Source: a virus
IMG/VR virus record: IMGVR_UViG_3300042691_030418
Coordinates: 1 to 40,803 of that record
Strand: one strand, 5' to 3'
Length of the DNA: 40,803 bases
Shown here piece by piece: positions 3,535 to 32,522 of the stretch (positions within the stretch are counted from its first letter, which is position 1; every line of letters begins with the position of its first letter). A program made the translations under genes and the position numbers. Under the pieces are notes generated by a model. The model ran no database searches. It was given only the letters and a program-made list of their open reading frames with translations, and was not told the origin of the DNA.

Positions 3535-4335
3535 ATGACCATCACCACCCAGGCCCAACTCGACGCGGCGCTGAAGTTCGACGTCACGATCATCAAGAAC
3601 CCTCTGTCCCAGAACGGGGCGTTCGAGGGCCGGGCAATCACCTTCCACACGGCGGGAAACCCGGTAGCCGGATCGCAGGCCGGGTCGAGCCCGGCTGCGG
3701 GCGTGATCGAAACCGACGCGACGACCGGCTGCCCAACTATCCCCAGCTTCGGCGGCCTGGATGGGCACATCGTTGGCGTGACCTACGCCGTCTCCGCGAC
3801 CAACCGGAGCGGCTGGCTCTACGACCGGCTGTGGCGCGCGGGAACCTATGCCTTCAACGCCAATCAGGCGGTCACGGCCTCCGCCTTGAGCCGGGTTCCG
3901 GGCGGTGACTTCAAGGGTCTTGAGCTATGGATCGAGGTCACGACCGACATGGTCGGAACCGCCACGGTCACCATTCTTTACGAGGACGAGAACAGCGCCC
4001 CAAGGACCTCCACGACCACCCTTCCGGCGGCCCTGGCAAACGGTAGGTGCTACCGGGCCAACTTGGCAGGGGCTGGCATCTCCAAGGTCACCAACGTCCA
4101 ACTGACCGGCGCGACGGGCGGTGCGATCAACGTCGCCATCATGCGGCGGCTGGTCTCCTGCCTCAAGATGTACGACCAAGCCACCAGCACCGGCACGTCC
4201 ATCCCCTCGTATGGGTTCAATGACCTCCAGACCGGCTTCGTGCGGGTCTACGAGGACAGCGCGCTCGTGCTGGTCTGCGACAACGCGACCTCCGCCCGAA
4301 ACGGCTTCATCTCGATCCGCATTGCGGTGGGGTAG
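3535..4335 (+). CDS. Tail/receptor-region structural protein, paralogue 3 of 3
   Basis: 266 residues, beginning three bases after paralogue 2. It is closest to copy 2: IPSFGGLDGHIVGVTYAVS, LSRVPGGDFKGLELWIEVTT, TILYEDENSAPRT, VAIMRRLVSCLKM and FVRVYEDSALVLVCD. The tandem arrangement, equal lengths and same block order indicate two rounds of local duplication followed by divergence. The likely role is a multi-subunit fibre or alternative receptor-contacting proteins; this is inference. Confidence 0.75.
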   Translation: MTITTQAQLDAALKFDVTIIKNPLSQNGAFEGRAITFHTAGNPVAGSQAGSSPAAGVIETDATTGCPTIPSFGGLDGHIVGVTYAVSATNRSGWLYDRLWRAGTYAFNANQAVTASALSRVPGGDFKGLELWIEVTTDMVGTATVTILYEDENSAPRTSTTTLPAALANGRCYRANLAGAGISKVTNVQLTGATGGAINVAIMRRLVSCLKMYDQATSTGTSIPSYGFNDLQTGFVRVYEDSALVLVCDNATSARNGFISIRIAVG

Positions 4336-4338
4336 GCC

Positions 4339-4995
4339 ATGACCGTGCTTCTCCGTCGTCCGATTGCGAGCGCCCGGGGCGCCGTTGCGGGTGTGGCAGC
4401 GGGCGACCTCGCGACCCTGCTGGGTGCGGCCTATTTCGCGGCAGGTTCGGCCCCGGCGTCCGGCGCCTTCACGGTGGCGGGGGTGGCAGGCGTCACCCTG
4501 GTCGGCGCCGCGCTGGCGTCCGGCGCGGTCTCGGTTGGCGGGGTTGCGGACTCGGCGCTCGTGGGGCGTGCCCTGGCGGGGGCCAGCTTCACCATTGCCG
4601 GGGTCGGCGCCGCCGATTGGACCGCAGCCACCGGGGCCTCGTCCTTCACCATCACCGGAAACGCCACAGCGGCGGCCACAGGGGCGGCCCTGGCGCGCGG
4701 CGCCGTGGTGGTGGCGGGGGTGGGCGCGGCTGCGCTTACAGGCGCCGCCCTGGCCGCCGCTGCGGCCAGCTTTGCCGGTTCGGCCACTGCCGCGTTCGTC
4801 AGTGGCGTGCTGGTGCCGGTCAACATTCCACCGGAGCGCACGCTGCGTGTCGGCCTGGACGCTCGAGCCCTGACCGTGGGCCTTGACGAGCGGCGCCTGA
4901 CGATTGCGCCCGACGCCCGCACGCTCACCGTGCCTGCCGACCCCCGGTCGCTCGTTGTGGCCCCGGACGCGCGCACGCTCACCGTCGCGGCCTAG
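4339..4995 (+). CDS. Ala-rich repeat protein, two different internal repeat blocks
   Basis: 218 residues. Residues about 35-160 contain roughly six degenerate 20-residue units (pattern small residues, then F/V-T-V-A-G-V, then A-L-x-G-A-A-L-A). Residues from about 165 to the end carry a second block of 9-residue units of the form R-x-L-x-V-x-x-D-x (RTLRVGLDA, RALTVGLDE, RRLTIAPDA, RTLTVPADP, RSLVVAPDA, RTLTVAA). Both patterns predict stacked beta structure. The RTLTVPA-type repeats are common in phage proteins encoded just before the fibre-tail adaptor, as here. Function is probably a fibre shaft or linker (inferred). Confidence 0.7.
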   Translation: MTVLLRRPIASARGAVAGVAAGDLATLLGAAYFAAGSAPASGAFTVAGVAGVTLVGAALASGAVSVGGVADSALVGRALAGASFTIAGVGAADWTAATGASSFTITGNATAAATGAALARGAVVVAGVGAAALTGAALAAAAASFAGSATAAFVSGVLVPVNIPPERTLRVGLDARALTVGLDERRLTIAPDARTLTVPADPRSLVVAPDARTLTVAA

Positions 4996-5883: not shown

Positions 5884-6185
5884 TGCCGCAAGTCGCGTGG
5901 GACTTCTTGGCGCTGGGCGGGGCGGTGATTTCATGCCTCGCCACCCTGGCCCGCCGCCATATGTTGTCCGACACGCTGGGGCGTTGGCACTCGGCGCCCG
6001 GCTCGGTCCAGGCCGCGCTCGCGTTTCAGTCGATCGTGACCGGCGGCATTGCCGTGAGCCTCGCCGTAGGCGGCCACCATGCCAACGAGGTCGAAACGCT
6101 GCTGCTTCTGGTGTCCGCGGTCGTCTCCGTCGCCCTGTGGCGAAACCTATCCCGCCAGGAGCGCGAAACCGAGGTTGAACAATGA
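5880..6185 (+). CDS. Small three-pass membrane protein, holin or spanin-like candidate
   Basis: 101 residues starting at tandem ATG codons (5880 and 5883) that overlap the stop of the previous gene. Hydrophobic segments lie at about 6-22, 45-63 and 70-87; the C-terminus is charged (RNLSRQERETEVEQ). Its own stop overlaps the start of the endolysin gene (ATGA at 6182). It is part of the lysis cassette by position; assignment as the holin is uncertain. Confidence 0.6.
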   Translation: MMPQVAWDFLALGGAVISCLATLARRHMLSDTLGRWHSAPGSVQAALAFQSIVTGGIAVSLAVGGHHANEVETLLLLVSAVVSVALWRNLSRQERETEVEQ

Positions 6186-6706
6186 GCGCCGCCGCCAAGG
6201 CCGTCTGGCCGAAACCCGACCTCGCGTCGATGAACGCCTACTACGGCAACCCGGATCGAAACCGCGACGGGACCGCCGACCGGGATTGGGAGGACGCCAA
6301 CCTCACCCGCCTCGTGCCGCCGTACCGCATGGTGCTGGCCTGGGATACCTCCCGCGAGCTTTCGGCCATCCGCGTCCACAAGAAGGTCGCGCCCAGCTTG
6401 GAAAGCATTCTCGAGCGGATCCTCGAACACTACGGCTCGCAGGCCGCCGTCGAGCAGGCCCGGCTCCACCTGTTCGGGGGCGCCTACAACTTCCGCCTAA
6501 AGCGGGGTGGCAGCACGTTGTCGAACCACTCCTGGGGCTCGGCCATCGACCTCGACCCGGAGCGGAATGCGTTCGGGCGCCGCTGGAAGCCGGGCGCCGG
6601 GATGATGCCCGAGGCGGTGGTGGAGCTCTTCAAGTCTGAGGGCTGGCGCTGGGGTGGACCGTTCCCCAAGGCCGACGCCATGCACTTCGAAGCGGTCAGA
6701 GGATGA
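6182..6706 (+). CDS. Endolysin, M15-family zinc peptidase (D-Ala-D-Ala carboxypeptidase / L-Ala-D-Glu type)
   Basis: 174 residues. Degrades peptidoglycan cross-bridges at lysis. The family signature is complete: SNHSWGSAIDLDP gives zinc ligands His116 and Asp123, and GWRWGGPF...DAMHFE gives the third zinc ligand His168 with the preceding catalytic region. No signal peptide is present, so release to the periplasm would depend on one of the adjacent membrane proteins acting as a holin. Length is typical for single-domain phage M15 endolysins; no cell-wall binding domain is seen, as expected for a Gram-negative host. Confidence 0.88.
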   Translation: MSAAAKAVWPKPDLASMNAYYGNPDRNRDGTADRDWEDANLTRLVPPYRMVLAWDTSRELSAIRVHKKVAPSLESILERILEHYGSQAAVEQARLHLFGGAYNFRLKRGGSTLSNHSWGSAIDLDPERNAFGRRWKPGAGMMPEAVVELFKSEGWRWGGPFPKADAMHFEAVRG

Positions 6707-13364: not shown

Positions 13365-13681
13365 GACCCGCCTCCTGAGTGGGGGTTGAGGGCTTGGCGG
13401 CTTTCCATCCACTCCGCCATGAAGGCCGGGTCGGCTCTGAGCCGCTTGCGGATATCGTAGCCCTCCCGCCGCGTGATCTCCTGCGCCCCGTACTTGAGCG
13501 CCAAACCCCGGCGCGTCAGGCTCAGGTCGTAGTGGGGGAAACTGGCGTCAGCTTGAAACCACGCCCGGCTCATTCCGATGCGACCGGCCATCGTGTGGAG
13601 TTCGGCCAGGGTGTCAGCAAACATGTGACACATGACCATGCGCCGGAAGTTGTTGCGTTCCTGATCGACGTAGACCGTCAC
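13361..13681 (-). CDS. DUF4031 domain protein
   Basis: 106 residues from a GTG at 13681. The sequence VTVYVDQERNNFRRMVMCHM, then FADTLAELHTMAGRIGMSRAWFQ, HYDLSLTRRGLALKYGAQEITRRE is the DUF4031 signature, a small family found in phages and bacteria. No activity is known to me. Translational coupling to the methyltransferase gene upstream and Lar-like gene downstream suggests a shared module. Confidence 0.8.
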   Translation of the reverse strand: MTVYVDQERNNFRRMVMCHMFADTLAELHTMAGRIGMSRAWFQADASFPHYDLSLTRRGLALKYGAQEITRREGYDIRKRLRADPAFMAEWMESRQALNPHSGGGS

Positions 13682-14406
13682 GACCAGCCTCCGTGCTTGG
13701 TGATGAAGTCGCGCTCGTGTCGTTGCAGCCAAACGTGTTCGGCAAGCTGGCCGCCCACCCAGGCGGCATAGGCGGGCGGGATGCCCTGGCTGATCTCAGC
13801 GCACGTCAGGCTGCGGCGCAGGCCCATGGCGTCGGCCATGGTGCGCTGGTGGCCGCCCTCCCATTCGTCCCGCGTGCCGCGTCCCCCGGCGCTCGCCGCC
13901 CGGCGCCGCGCGTGGCCGCCATAGACACCGACGACCGGCTTGGCGTGGGCGCATGGCCCGGGCGCCGACAGCGGCCAGTTCGTCTCGAACTTCCGGTGCC
14001 GCTGGAGGTGGTAGCGGGCGCCCCGGTCGGTCACGCCGAGGCCGAACATGGAGCCGCACAGGACAACCGGATCGACCAGCGCCGCGCCCTCCACGTTCTC
14101 GATGACGTAGGGCAACCCCGACGCCCGCAGGAGGCGCCGGGTGGCCGGGATCAGTTCCGGGTGGGCCTCACCCTTGGCGCCGGGGGCGTGCCGCATGGCG
14201 GTGTCGCGCAGGCAGGGCGGTGAGGCCCATACCGCATCGAACGCGGCCAGGAACCGCACGTCCAGGCAGGTCGCGTCGGCCTGCAGGAACGGGCCGGGGT
14301 AGCGGGGCTGCGGGTAAAGATCTACGCCCACCACGTTGAACCCGGCCAGCCGCAGGCCGTCCGCGACCAACCCCGCACCGCAGAACAGGTCGAGGATGCG
14401 AAGCAT
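13678..14406 (-). CDS. C5 cytosine DNA methyltransferase
   Basis: 242 residues from ATG at 14406 (TGATG overlap). Adds methyl groups to cytosine C5 in DNA using SAM. Motif I is LDLFCGAGLVADGL (residues 5-18), motif IV is ASPPC with catalytic Cys65, motif VI is ENV at 103-105, motif VIII-like YHLQRHRKFE, and the C-terminal motif X is IPPAYAAWVGGQL. It is shorter than typical bacterial enzymes (300 or more residues), with a small target-recognition region, as in many phage orphan methyltransferases. No cognate restriction enzyme is adjacent. Confidence 0.85.
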   Translation of the reverse strand: MLRILDLFCGAGLVADGLRLAGFNVVGVDLYPQPRYPGPFLQADATCLDVRFLAAFDAVWASPPCLRDTAMRHAPGAKGEAHPELIPATRRLLRASGLPYVIENVEGAALVDPVVLCGSMFGLGVTDRGARYHLQRHRKFETNWPLSAPGPCAHAKPVVGVYGGHARRRAASAGGRGTRDEWEGGHQRTMADAMGLRRSLTCAEISQGIPPAYAAWVGGQLAEHVWLQRHERDFITKHGGWS

Positions 14407-28657: not shown

Positions 28658-29275
28658 ATGCCTAAGACCCAGGCCGCAGCCAAGGCGCCGCCCGTTGATG
28701 GTCGCCGCGTCCTTGCCTACACCGACCCGGCCACGCTCCAACCCTACGACCGCAACGCCCGGACCCACACTGACGAACAGGTCCGCCAGATTCGCGCGTC
28801 CATTGAACAGTTCGGGTTCAACGCACCGATCCTTCTCAAGGAGGACGGTTCCACCATCGGCGCCGGTCATGGCCGCTGGATGGCGGCGATGTTGGACCCT
28901 CCGCTACCCGAGGTTCCGGTCATCACTTTGCGCGGCCTTAGCGAAGCCCAGTGGCGCGCCTACGTGATCGCCGACAACAAGATCGCGCTCAACTCCGTAT
29001 GGAACGACGAGCTTCTGCGTTCCGAACTGGCCGACCTTGAGCGCCAGGGCGTCAACCTAGCGATTGCCGGGTTCACGCCGGAAGAACTCGACGCGATCCA
29101 CCGGGGTTGGGATAGCGACCTGGGCGCCCTGGAGCGTCACACCGAGAACCTTGACGGCATGGGGGTTACGGTTCGCATCGTTCTTGGTCCTGACCACAAG
29201 GACCGCGCCGACGACGTGGTGGCAGGGGTCACGGCGTGGTTGGCGGAACAGAAGATCACGGCGGACGTGAAGTGA
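28658..29275 (+). CDS. ParB/Srx-domain DNA-modification-associated protein
   Basis: 205 residues; the ATG at 28658 has GGAG upstream, preferred to an upstream TTG. Residues 20-110 form a ParB-like N-terminal domain: LQPYDRNARTHTDEQVRQIRASIEQFGFNAPILLKEDGSTIGAGHGRWMAAML, with the GAGHGR loop typical of ParB-like proteins near DNA methylases and modification genes. DpdB of bacterial 7-deazaguanine DNA modification is also of ParB-like fold (my recollection), so a partner role with the DpdA-like enzyme next door is plausible. This protein's C-terminus lacks the ATPase domain that would be expected of a full DpdB. Confidence 0.75.
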   Translation: MPKTQAAAKAPPVDGRRVLAYTDPATLQPYDRNARTHTDEQVRQIRASIEQFGFNAPILLKEDGSTIGAGHGRWMAAMLDPPLPEVPVITLRGLSEAQWRAYVIADNKIALNSVWNDELLRSELADLERQGVNLAIAGFTPEELDAIHRGWDSDLGALERHTENLDGMGVTVRIVLGPDHKDRADDVVAGVTAWLAEQKITADVK

Positions 29276-30129
29276 CGGAGCCGGTGGACGTGCCATCCCC
29301 GGCGCTCAACGTGCTGGTGGCCTATCCCTACCTGCAGGCGGGCATGATCGAGGCGCTGGCGGGTTGTGGACCGCACCTGCGGTTCCTGCTGGACTGCGGC
29401 GCCTTCACGGCCTGGGCTGGCGGTAAGCCGGTCGACTTGGACGCCTACTGCAAGTCCATCGAGACCATGTCGGTGCGCCCCTGGCGCTACTTCGCCCTCG
29501 ACGTGATTGGCGACCCGGAAGCCACCCGCCGGAATTACGAGGTGATGCTGTCCCGGGGGTTGACCCCGGTGCCGATCCTAACACCCGGCGAAAGCCTGGA
29601 CGTGATGGACGAATACTGGCGGACGAGCGACGTTGTGGGGGTGGGTGGTCTTAACGGCCTGGGTCACCGCAAGCACGGCTACGTCAAGGCGGTCATGCGC
29701 CACGCTGCCGGGCGCCGCGTTCACCTCCTGGGCTACACCGGCCTTAGCTACATCAAGGCGCACCGCCCCTATATGTGCGACGCCTCGTCCTGGGAATCCG
29801 GCGCGCGATACGGCTCCTTCCTGCTCTACATGGGCCACGGACGGACCCGGCAGCTAAAGAAGACCGAATTCGCCGACCGACCCTCCACCGAGGTTCTCGA
29901 GCGCATCCGCGCGCTTGGAATGGACCCCTACACGCTCGCGCGGAACGCGGGGTGGGCAGGGGGTTACTCCATCAACCGGCGGCTGGCCGCGAGGTCATGG
30001 GTTGCCATGTCCCTCGATGCCGAACGCGCCCTGGGAACCCGCCTGTTCCTGGCGCTTAACACCAAGAACGCGCTCCGCGTGGTCCGCGAGGCGTTTGAGT
30101 TCCTGGTCCCACACCGCGAGGCTGCATGA
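29272..30129 (+). CDS. dpdA: DpdA-like DNA 7-deazaguanine transglycosylase
   Basis: 285 residues starting at the GTG overlapping the upstream stop. Expected to swap guanine in DNA for a 7-deazaguanine base. TGT-type motifs: FLLDCGAFTAW (Asp41), YFALDVIGDPEATRRNYEVML, VPILTPGESLD, VGVGGLNGLGHRKH, and HLLGYTGLSYIKAHRPYMCDASSW where Asp170 is at the nucleophile position. The zinc Cys cluster of tRNA enzymes is absent, as in phage DpdA proteins. Genes for making the modified base follow in the same operon. DNA as substrate is inferred from this context. Confidence 0.8.
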   Translation: MTEPVDVPSPALNVLVAYPYLQAGMIEALAGCGPHLRFLLDCGAFTAWAGGKPVDLDAYCKSIETMSVRPWRYFALDVIGDPEATRRNYEVMLSRGLTPVPILTPGESLDVMDEYWRTSDVVGVGGLNGLGHRKHGYVKAVMRHAAGRRVHLLGYTGLSYIKAHRPYMCDASSWESGARYGSFLLYMGHGRTRQLKKTEFADRPSTEVLERIRALGMDPYTLARNAGWAGGYSINRRLAARSWVAMSLDAERALGTRLFLALNTKNALRVVREAFEFLVPHREAA

Positions 30130-30716
30130 CCGTGTTCGCTGCCGATGAAGGCACCAAGTTTGGCACCTGGGGCGACCCGACAAGTCAACTCCTCTATCGC
30201 GACGTCATGCCTGTGTTCCTAAGCGGGGTGGACACGTCCTACCGGGTCTTTGACCTCGGTGGTGCAAACGGACTCCTTCGCCACTTCATTCCCCACGCCC
30301 TGACGGTGGACATTGACCCGACCAAGGCGCCGGACGTGGTGGCCGACTGTCTAAAGTGGAAACCGAAATGGTTTCCGCGCCCGTCCCTGGCCGTGTTGCG
30401 CTACGTCTTGCACTACCTGACCGACACCCAGGCAACCAAGCTGTTCAACCACCTTGCCACCTGGGCCGACCGGGTGCTGGTAATCCAGTTCGTTACCGAC
30501 CCTGAACACTTGGCGGCCAAGACCCACAACTCGGTCAACGAGGTGAAGTGGTTCCGCTCGGAACCTGAGCTGCTGGCGCTGCTGGGCGAATGGAAGGTGC
30601 TGGACCGCAAGCGGCTGGACTTCACGGTGGACGCGGAGTTCTACCGGCGCCGTCTTCTCCACCCAAATCCTATCAGCCACCCCGAGGGCGTCGTGGCGCT
30701 CTACCTGACCCGATAG
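30126..30716 (+). CDS. SAM-dependent methyltransferase in modification operon
   Basis: 196 residues, ATGA overlap with dpdA. Class I SAM-binding fold: motif I VFDLGGANGLLRHF (about 39-52), acidic motif II LTVDIDPTKAPDVVADC, followed by a strand-helix pattern. The C-terminal half has RLDFTVDAEFYRRRLLHPNP, unfamiliar to me. Its position between transglycosylase and base-synthesis genes suggests that it modifies the inserted base, its precursor or the DNA, but it could equally methylate an unrelated target. Confidence 0.65.
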   Translation: MTVFAADEGTKFGTWGDPTSQLLYRDVMPVFLSGVDTSYRVFDLGGANGLLRHFIPHALTVDIDPTKAPDVVADCLKWKPKWFPRPSLAVLRYVLHYLTDTQATKLFNHLATWADRVLVIQFVTDPEHLAAKTHNSVNEVKWFRSEPELLALLGEWKVLDRKRLDFTVDAEFYRRRLLHPNPISHPEGVVALYLTR

Positions 30717-30724
30717 GCCACCTC

Positions 30725-31174
30725 ATGCCCTACCGTTCCACCAAGACCTACGGCCACGAGGTCGGCCTGTCCTGCGCGTTCCGCCAGTGGCGGGCACAAA
30801 GCCACTGTCGGTTCATGCACGGCTACGCCCTGTCAGTGGGGTTCGTGTTCGAAGCTGACGAACTGGACGAGCGGAACTGGGTCGTGGACTTCGGTGGCCT
30901 AAAGCCGCTGAAGGGTATGCTTGAGGCGCTGCTGGACCACCAGACGCTCGTGGCCGAGGATGACCCCGAGCGCGCGTTCTACGAGGCAGCGGCCGAGCGT
31001 GGAATCATGCAGGTCCGGGTGGTTCCCTCCACCGGCTGTGAGGCCACTGCCGCGCTGATCTACGGCGCAACCGAGGTCTGGTTGCGGGACGCGGGGTTCG
31101 CTCCCCGGGTTCGCTTGGTGTCGGTCGAGGTGCGCGAACACGGCGCGAACAGCGCGATTTTCCAGGCAGCCTAA
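30725..31174 (+). CDS. queD: QueD-like 6-carboxytetrahydropterin synthase
   Basis: 149 residues from ATG at 30725. QueD turns dihydroneopterin triphosphate into carboxytetrahydropterin. Catalytic residues line up: Cys28 (SHCRF), His72 (LLDHQT), Glu138 (VREHG). The zinc-binding HGH motif reads HGY (His32, Tyr34), and the usual upstream zinc His is not found (sequence SCAFRQWRAQSHC). This FRQWRA-type variant occurs in a phage subgroup of QueD. Enzyme activity is likely but the metal site may differ. Confidence 0.82.
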   Translation: MPYRSTKTYGHEVGLSCAFRQWRAQSHCRFMHGYALSVGFVFEADELDERNWVVDFGGLKPLKGMLEALLDHQTLVAEDDPERAFYEAAAERGIMQVRVVPSTGCEATAALIYGATEVWLRDAGFAPRVRLVSVEVREHGANSAIFQAA

Positions 31175-31897
31175 ATGAAGCGGATCGCCATTGCCGAAAT
31201 CTTCGGCCCCGTCATCCAGGGGGAGGGCGCCCTGATCGGTGTGCCCACCCTGTTCGTGCGAACCGGCGGGTGCGACTTCCGCTGCTCATGGTGTGACACG
31301 ATGTTCGCCGTGGACCCAATTCACGCCGCGACCTGGGAACGCCTCACCGTGGACGAGATTGTTCAGCGCACCGACGCGCTCTGTGGTCGCCAGTATATGC
31401 GCCCGATGGTCACGCTGTCGGGTGGGAACCCCGCGATGTGGCCGCTGGGCGATCTGGTGGCGGCCCTACAGGCGCGCGGGCACCGGGTGGCCATTGAAAC
31501 GCAGGGCAGCGTGTGGGCGCCCTGGGCGAGCGCCCTGGACCACGTTACGGTCAGCCCGAAACCACCCAGCAGCGGCCAGCCGATGGATTGGGACGGCTTG
31601 CGGAAGTGGCTAAGGGCGAAACCGCCCGCGAACACGTCGCTCAAGGTGGTGGTGGACACACCCGACGACCTTCAATTCGCTCTGGACTGTGCGTTTGAAA
31701 CAAAGCCGGGCACGACGCTCTACGTCCAGACCTGCAACCCCTACCACGGCCAGGACGAGGTCACCCCGGCCCAGCGCCTTAAACTGCTGGACCGCTACGA
31801 AGCCCTCTGTGGCATGGTGATGGAGCGCGGCCTGCATGACGTGGTGGTGTTGCCCCAGCTTCACGTCCTAGCCAATGGAGGCGGTCGTGGCCGCTGA
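31175..31897 (+). CDS. queE: 7-carboxy-7-deazaguanine synthase QueE
   Basis: 240 residues, starting at the base after the queD stop. A radical-SAM enzyme that makes CDG from carboxytetrahydropterin. EIFGPVIQGEGALIGVPTLFVRTGGCDFRCSWCDT has the substrate region and the CxxxCxxC cluster ligands Cys33, Cys37 and Cys40. MVTLSGGNPAM is the GGE-like SAM-binding stretch. Length fits the family. The end overlaps the folE gene by 11 bases (GTG start) or 23 bases (ATG start). Confidence 0.92.
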   Translation: MKRIAIAEIFGPVIQGEGALIGVPTLFVRTGGCDFRCSWCDTMFAVDPIHAATWERLTVDEIVQRTDALCGRQYMRPMVTLSGGNPAMWPLGDLVAALQARGHRVAIETQGSVWAPWASALDHVTVSPKPPSSGQPMDWDGLRKWLRAKPPANTSLKVVVDTPDDLQFALDCAFETKPGTTLYVQTCNPYHGQDEVTPAQRLKLLDRYEALCGMVMERGLHDVVVLPQLHVLANGGGRGR

Positions 31898-32522
31898 TGA
31901 CGCCTTCACCTCCCGCCCCTTCAACCCGGCGCCCGCGACCACTGGAGTCGACGTAGAGGCCGCAAAGGTTGCCGTCCGCGATCTGTTGGTGGCGCTTGGT
32001 GAAGACCCCAACCGCGAGGGGTTGTTGGACACCCCCCGCAGGGTGGCCGATATGTGGGCCGAGTTCTTGGACTATGACCCGGGCCGCCTGGGAACCATGT
32101 TCGAATCCGAGACCGTTGATCAGTTGGTCGTGGTGAGCGGGATGCGCGTCTGGTCGATGTGCGAACACCACCTCCTCCCGTTTTGGTGCGACGTGGCGGT
32201 AGGTTACCTGTCGCAGCCAGCCGCGGATGCGGGTGGGACAGCGGCGCCCCGGGTGATCGGCCTGTCAAAGATGGGTCGGATTGCCCACAAACACGCCCAC
32301 CGGCTGCAGCTACAGGAGCGGCTGGTGTCTGGTATCGCGAGCGACCTTAGAGCCGCCCTGGGCCACGCCCACGTCGCGGTCGTGGCGCGCGGCGAACACC
32401 TCTGCATGACGGCGCGGGGTGTTCGCACCCCCCACCGAATGACCTCCAGCGACCTACATGGCGCCTTCCGTGAACCGGCGCTGCGCGCGGAGTTCCTGGC
32501 GCTGGCCGACCTGAAAGGGTAG
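31887..32522 (+). CDS. folE: GTP cyclohydrolase I
   Basis: 211 residues from GTG at 31887, chosen because GGAGG lies five bases upstream; an ATG at 31875 has no such site. Catalyses the first step from GTP to dihydroneopterin triphosphate. Core motifs: NREGLLDTPRRVADMW, SMCEHHLLPF with zinc ligands Cys92 and His95, GLSKMGRI, RLQLQERLV, and GEHLCMTARG with zinc ligand Cys173. It supplies substrate for QueD; a phage copy would boost the pathway independent of host folate regulation. Confidence 0.93.
   Translation: MAADDAFTSRPFNPAPATTGVDVEAAKVAVRDLLVALGEDPNREGLLDTPRRVADMWAEFLDYDPGRLGTMFESETVDQLVVVSGMRVWSMCEHHLLPFWCDVAVGYLSQPAADAGGTAAPRVIGLSKMGRIAHKHAHRLQLQERLVSGIASDLRAALGHAHVAVVARGEHLCMTARGVRTPHRMTSSDLHGAFREPALRAEFLALADLKG

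Follow-up and report, generated by a model that had tools for sequence, protein, structure and literature searches.

A methyltransferase-like protein replaces QueC in a viral 7-deazaguanine DNA-modification operon

The 40,803-nucleotide stretch of the IMG/VR virus record IMGVR_UViG_3300042691_030418 (hereafter, the window) contains an operon for the modification of DNA with 7-deazaguanine bases (28658-32522). Its six genes lie on the same strand with small gaps or overlaps and encode, in this order, a ParB-like protein, the DNA-guanine transglycosylase DpdA, a methyltransferase-like protein termed MT here, QueD, QueE, and FolE. The MT gene (30126-30716) occupies the position where relatives carry queC, and the replacement of QueC by MT is well supported. 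On balance, we favor with modest confidence that MT acts on 7-carboxy-7-deazaguanine (CDG) and that a methyl-ester base is put into the phage DNA. If true, this suggests a so far unreported DNA base, most likely the CDG methyl ester; we know of no DNA in which 7-methoxycarbonyl-7-deazaguanine has been described.

Absence of QueC From the Window

An earlier note on this DNA had placed DpdA, QueD, QueE, and FolE in a single unit without QueC. The first part was confirmed, as the four genes lie nearly contiguously on one strand and match their families. The second part holds as well: a search of the window with the QueC profile PF06508, which matched in 12 of 14 control genomes, returned nothing, and the motif [LVIFY]SGGx[DE][ST] is absent from all six reading frames. 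The window carries two components of DpdA-type 7-deazaguanine modification, namely DpdA and the set of FolE, QueD, and QueE for CDG synthesis, while a QueC with the SGGxDS motif, representing the QueC branch of the preQ0 pathway, was not found in it. The source record is linear, with 68% G+C. Since it stops inside a head-tail adaptor gene, at the end of the window, and no tail gene was seen among the open reading frames checked, the genome is probably incomplete, and the absence of QueC therefore holds for the window and not for the whole phage genome.

MT Is Predicted to Be a Class I Methyltransferase

The MT gene had been overlooked in the earlier note. No Pfam, PHROG, or NCBIfam model matched MT above cut-off, and its assignment to a known family was rejected accordingly. 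The AlphaFold (AF2) model (predicted local distance difference test score, pLDDT, of 91.4) is that of a class I methyltransferase, with a Rossmann fold, motif I for binding of S-adenosylmethionine (SAM; DxGGxNG), and an acidic residue following strand 2. Motif I (D-x-GG-x-NG) is invariant in 21 MT homologues, as are D62, R92, H96, Y97, K132, E139, R144, R176, H185, and E187; the acidic residue is likewise shared by them. The best fold matches in the PDB were small-molecule O- and N-methyltransferases, and the carboxyl methyltransferase BioC reached the highest query template modeling (TM) score, 0.68, among the matches listed.

Scans of INPHARED phages, PLSDB plasmids, and GTDB genomes by tblastn and by pattern, which distant members may escape, returned no MT. 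In a viral structure library, A0A6J5MXR3, an uncharacterized protein of an uncultured Caudovirales phage, matched MT with 38% identity and a TM-score of 0.86. As far as we found, neither the MT family nor its exchange with QueC nor the covarying DpdA loop described below has been reported in the literature.

MT and QueC Alternate Across Viral Loci

Eighty viral loci were fetched with the window DpdA and then with an alignment of nine DpdAs, and were typed by profile searches over all open frames. QueC was present in 64 loci, MT in seven, neither in nine, and both in none (Fisher p = 3.6e-6, a value that is optimistic because some loci are near copies). Where a locus had neither gene, a profile search of the rest of the contig did not reveal an MT either. 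A search with MT itself yielded 34 uncultivated viral contigs in addition to the window, forming 21 clusters at 90% identity, and PF06508 was absent from 32 of 33 MT records when whole contigs were searched, among them two of 59.6 and 62.4 kb.

The two genes also share a position. In 32 of 34 loci, the DpdA stop codon and the start of the MT match lie no more than about 20 bases apart, and QueC directly follows DpdA in 53 of 66. The clearest swap pair is formed by L004-L006, with the order ParB-DpdA-MT-FolE-QueD-PRT-QueE (PRT, phosphoribosyltransferase-like), and either L008, which begins in the same way but has QueC for MT (ParB-DpdA-QueC-FolE-QueD-PRT), or L038 and L048, which show the full order with QueC in place. 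The genes for CDG synthesis are retained at the MT loci (QueD in 37/37, QueE in 35/37, and FolE in 34/37). The well supported branches of a DpdA tree cannot be reconciled with fewer than five gains or losses of MT, and in nearly all pairings of independent pairs QueC changes in the opposite direction or stays.

Two loci of other types were observed. In L059, a short divergent QueC-like protein (6089-6586; PF06508 E 0.00057, below cut-off) is encoded where QueC usually sits. L084, which has neither QueC nor MT, encodes a different methyltransferase (4222-4980) between FolE and QueD; its best NCBIfam models were BioC and then trans-aconitate methyltransferase, both below cut-off and at this single locus. 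Both of these enzymes are carboxyl methyltransferases, in line with the reaction proposed below for MT.

The DpdA Loop Covaries With MT

In tblastn searches, the window DpdA matched the DpdA proteins of Mycobacterium phages Bipper and Cracklewink and of 9g-like coliphages (E 1e-10 to 1e-12). Asp37 and Asp166 are invariant in 25 relatives. The AF2 model (pLDDT 91.6) gave no confident match in a fold search of the PDB, tRNA-guanine transglycosylase (TGT) included.

Among core DpdAs, defined by more than 33% identity to the window protein, GGL is followed by V in 54, by T in three, and by N in none of the 57 QueC-linked proteins, whereas N follows it in seven of the eight MT-linked ones, and in these seven a nearby R is replaced by P. 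The Asn requires about three changes on a DpdA tree built without these columns, and it is confined to MT-linked DpdAs and to L040, which lies in an MT clade. In TGT, the Leu231/Ala232 peptide of the loop GGLAVGE flips and thereby admits preQ1 (PMC3660597). The correspondence of the two loops is one of motif, as mapping onto Escherichia coli TGT by profile comparison was not significant. The difference between MT- and QueC-linked proteins in this loop supports the insertion of a different base.

Proposed Pathway

From the known functions of their families, FolE, QueD, and QueE would convert GTP to CDG. QueC turns the carboxylate into a nitrile, yielding preQ0. This conversion of CDG proceeds via an amide (PMC13329287). 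In the place of QueC, MT would most likely use SAM to methylate the carboxylate of CDG, giving 7-methoxycarbonyl-7-deazaguanine. CDG is the presumed substrate because a replacement of QueC most simply takes the substrate of QueC. The methyl ester would be a neutral 7-substituted base, its negative charge at position 7 removed just as it is by QueC. DpdA, probably aided by the ParB-like protein, would then exchange the methyl-ester base for guanine in the phage DNA, where it would guard against restriction. Alternatively, MT may methylate dCDG after DpdA has inserted CDG. The genes, the exchange in the QueC slot, the mutual exclusion, and the covarying DpdA loop are observed; CDG as the substrate, the O-methylation of its carboxylate, and the sequence of events are inferred.

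The earlier note was right that the operon can make CDG and lacks QueC, so that plain preQ0 is an unlikely final product. Its two suggestions for the product, bare CDG in the DNA or the use of a borrowed host QueC, fared less well, since neither accounts for the alternation of MT and QueC across many phages.

Alternative Explanations

Several observations weigh against methylation of CDG by MT. The likeness to BioC is no closer than that seen across the superfamily (10-19% identity), so that the fold is placed while the reaction is not fixed. One locus, L019, has both MT and QueC, with QueC located after FolE and scoring below the other full-length ones. The independent pairs and contrasts on the DpdA tree are too few for the swap to reach significance. 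L040/L041 fall within an MT clade and retain the Asn loop but carry neither MT nor QueC, and the more divergent DpdAs linked to MT lack the Asn. Finally, the majority of MT contigs are fragmentary, and queC may lie elsewhere in those genomes.

Other roles for MT were considered. Decarboxylation of CDG, which would leave plain 7-deazaguanine (dDG) in the DNA as proposed for DpdL, would account for the exchange with QueC equally well. Some methyltransferase-fold enzymes do decarboxylate, including DnrK, which is among the fold matches of MT, and both dDG and the CDG decarboxylase DpdL are reportedly known from phages without QueC (Cui et al. 2023). However, all 21 homologues keep the SAM-binding motif intact, as a SAM user would, and the MT profile had no match in Cellulophaga phage phiST or Flavobacterium phage immuto, which makes this role unlikely. 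To a similar degree we doubt that the DNA carries bare CDG (dCDG) while MT methylates another atom of the base or acts on DNA or protein. FolE, QueD, and QueE are enough for CDG, L040/L041 and L100/L101 have neither gene, and Bipper, also without QueC and MT, has been suggested to be CDG-modified (PMC6884629). It would, however, be surprising for an unrelated methyltransferase to trade one slot with QueC in several lineages of DpdA, and MT has neither a recognizable target-recognition domain nor the catalytic motif [DN]PP[YFW] of DNA N6/N4 amino-methyltransferases.

It is less probable still that host QueC makes preQ0 for insertion by the phage, with MT as an accessory. Many phages with DpdA but without preQ0 genes presumably depend on the host (PMC6884629), but here the phage itself encodes steps one to three and drops only the fourth, always with MT in its place, and the base loop of DpdA is unlike that of QueC-linked DpdAs. 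A queC gene in a part of the genome beyond the contig would be compatible with a linear contig that ends in the head-tail adaptor gene and shows no tail gene; we consider it very improbable, as QueC, where relatives have it, almost always sits within the operon, and the two long MT contigs likewise lack it. For the broader proposal, which comprises a new MT family, a methyl-ester base in phage DNA, MT and QueC as interchangeable modules, and accommodation by the V-to-N change of DpdA in several lineages, we see the arguments for and against as evenly balanced.

Methylation of CDG by MT would turn the bare absence of QueC into a specific prediction: a protein family so far without annotation, together with its probable substrate and product. 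Since phage 7-deazaguanines protect DNA from restriction, a further base would widen the known anti-restriction chemistry of phages. A methyl ester can hydrolyze to dCDG under alkaline handling, and dCDG measured in MT phages could therefore be a breakdown product.

Comparison With Known Systems

The CDG-derived or methylated 7-deazaguanines of the phages studied by Cui et al. 2023 resemble the base proposed here; dCDG, dDG, mdPreQ1, and fdPreQ1 were reportedly found in phage DNA, with DpdL, DpdM, and DpdN proposed, and the CDG methyl ester is not known to be among these bases. The fold of DpdM, the dPreQ1 methyltransferase, was reportedly described as new for nucleic-acid methylases. The predicted fold of MT is the common class I Rossmann type, which would speak against its being DpdM. 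By analogy of the proposed reaction, MT may be likened to CmoM, which forms a SAM-dependent methyl ester on a carboxylated base, cmo5U, but acts on tRNA (PMC10516636). BioC, the malonyl-acyl carrier protein O-methyltransferase, shares the class I fold with MT and methylates a carboxyl oxygen, with 10-12% identity and another substrate.

Like the window, the phage DpdA systems of Hutinet et al. 2019 (e.g., Rosebush and CAjan with dPreQ0, and 9g with dG+) have DpdA, FolE, QueD, and QueE clustered; in contrast to them, the window lacks QueC or Gat-QueC and has MT instead, and a ParB-like gene precedes its DpdA. The absence of QueC, perhaps with CDG as the product, is not new, as it was noted earlier for Mycobacterium phage Bipper, described as lacking only QueC and as possibly CDG-modified (Hutinet et al. 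2019; PMC6884629). The gene order in Bipper, ParB-DpdA-x-QueD-QueE-FolE, is that of the window, where MT takes the place of x. This gene encodes gp4, a protein of 141 amino acids without a Pfam match (L103:2047-2472), and a gp4-type protein is encoded in the QueC slot of Bipper as well as of its relatives. Gp4 was rejected as an MT, as the whole Bipper genome gave no match to the MT profile.

Operon Features and Partner Genes

The features of the operon are compiled in Table 1.

Table 1. Genes of the operon and two residues of DpdA, with positions in the window.
Feature	Position	Strand	Evidence or remark
ParB-like protein, 205 aa	28658..29275	+	PHROG 620 E 1.5e-41; PF02195 E 0.0016
DpdA-like DNA-guanine transglycosylase, 281 aa, GTG start	29284..30129	+	PHROG 887 E 1.4e-23
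DpdA Pro101 (TPGE)	29584..29586	+	QueC-linked relatives mostly Arg (TRGE)
DpdA Asn124 (GGL-N-G loop)	29653..29655	+	By motif, Ala232 of TGT loop GGLAVGE
MT, class I SAM-methyltransferase-like, 196 aa, in QueC slot	30126..30716	+	Between DpdA and QueD
QueD-like 6-carboxytetrahydropterin synthase	30725..31174	+	Pfam PTPS PF01242 E 2.6e-14; PHROG 2389 E 1.6e-40
QueE	31175..31897	+	TIGR03365 245 bits (cut-off 206); solved QueE 5tgs E 3.4e-42, full-length match
FolE, GTP cyclohydrolase I	31875..32522	+	PF01227 E 5.9e-46; solved GTP cyclohydrolases down to E 2.7e-33

Of 111 DpdA loci, 103 have a ParB-like gene immediately 5' of DpdA, in QueC and MT types alike, and the same is seen in Bipper and Sonali. 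The ParB-like protein thus looks like a constant partner of DpdA, possibly one that targets DNA or depends on ATP or CTP. The zinc site of the window QueD is unusual in the alignment, with Phe for the first His and HGY for HGH. This type is common to many QueC-linked loci and Cellulophaga phage phiST, and MT occurs both with it and with the canonical type. The PRT gene recurs in 34 DpdA loci (e.g., L002:3793-4227 and L005:3267-3650).

Elsewhere, the window encodes an integrase, a repressor, RecT, Gam, a terminase, a portal protein, and a major head protein, and the phage is probably temperate. A DNA methyltransferase of PHROG 363 is encoded on the minus strand at 13678-14406 and may provide this phage with a second DNA modification.

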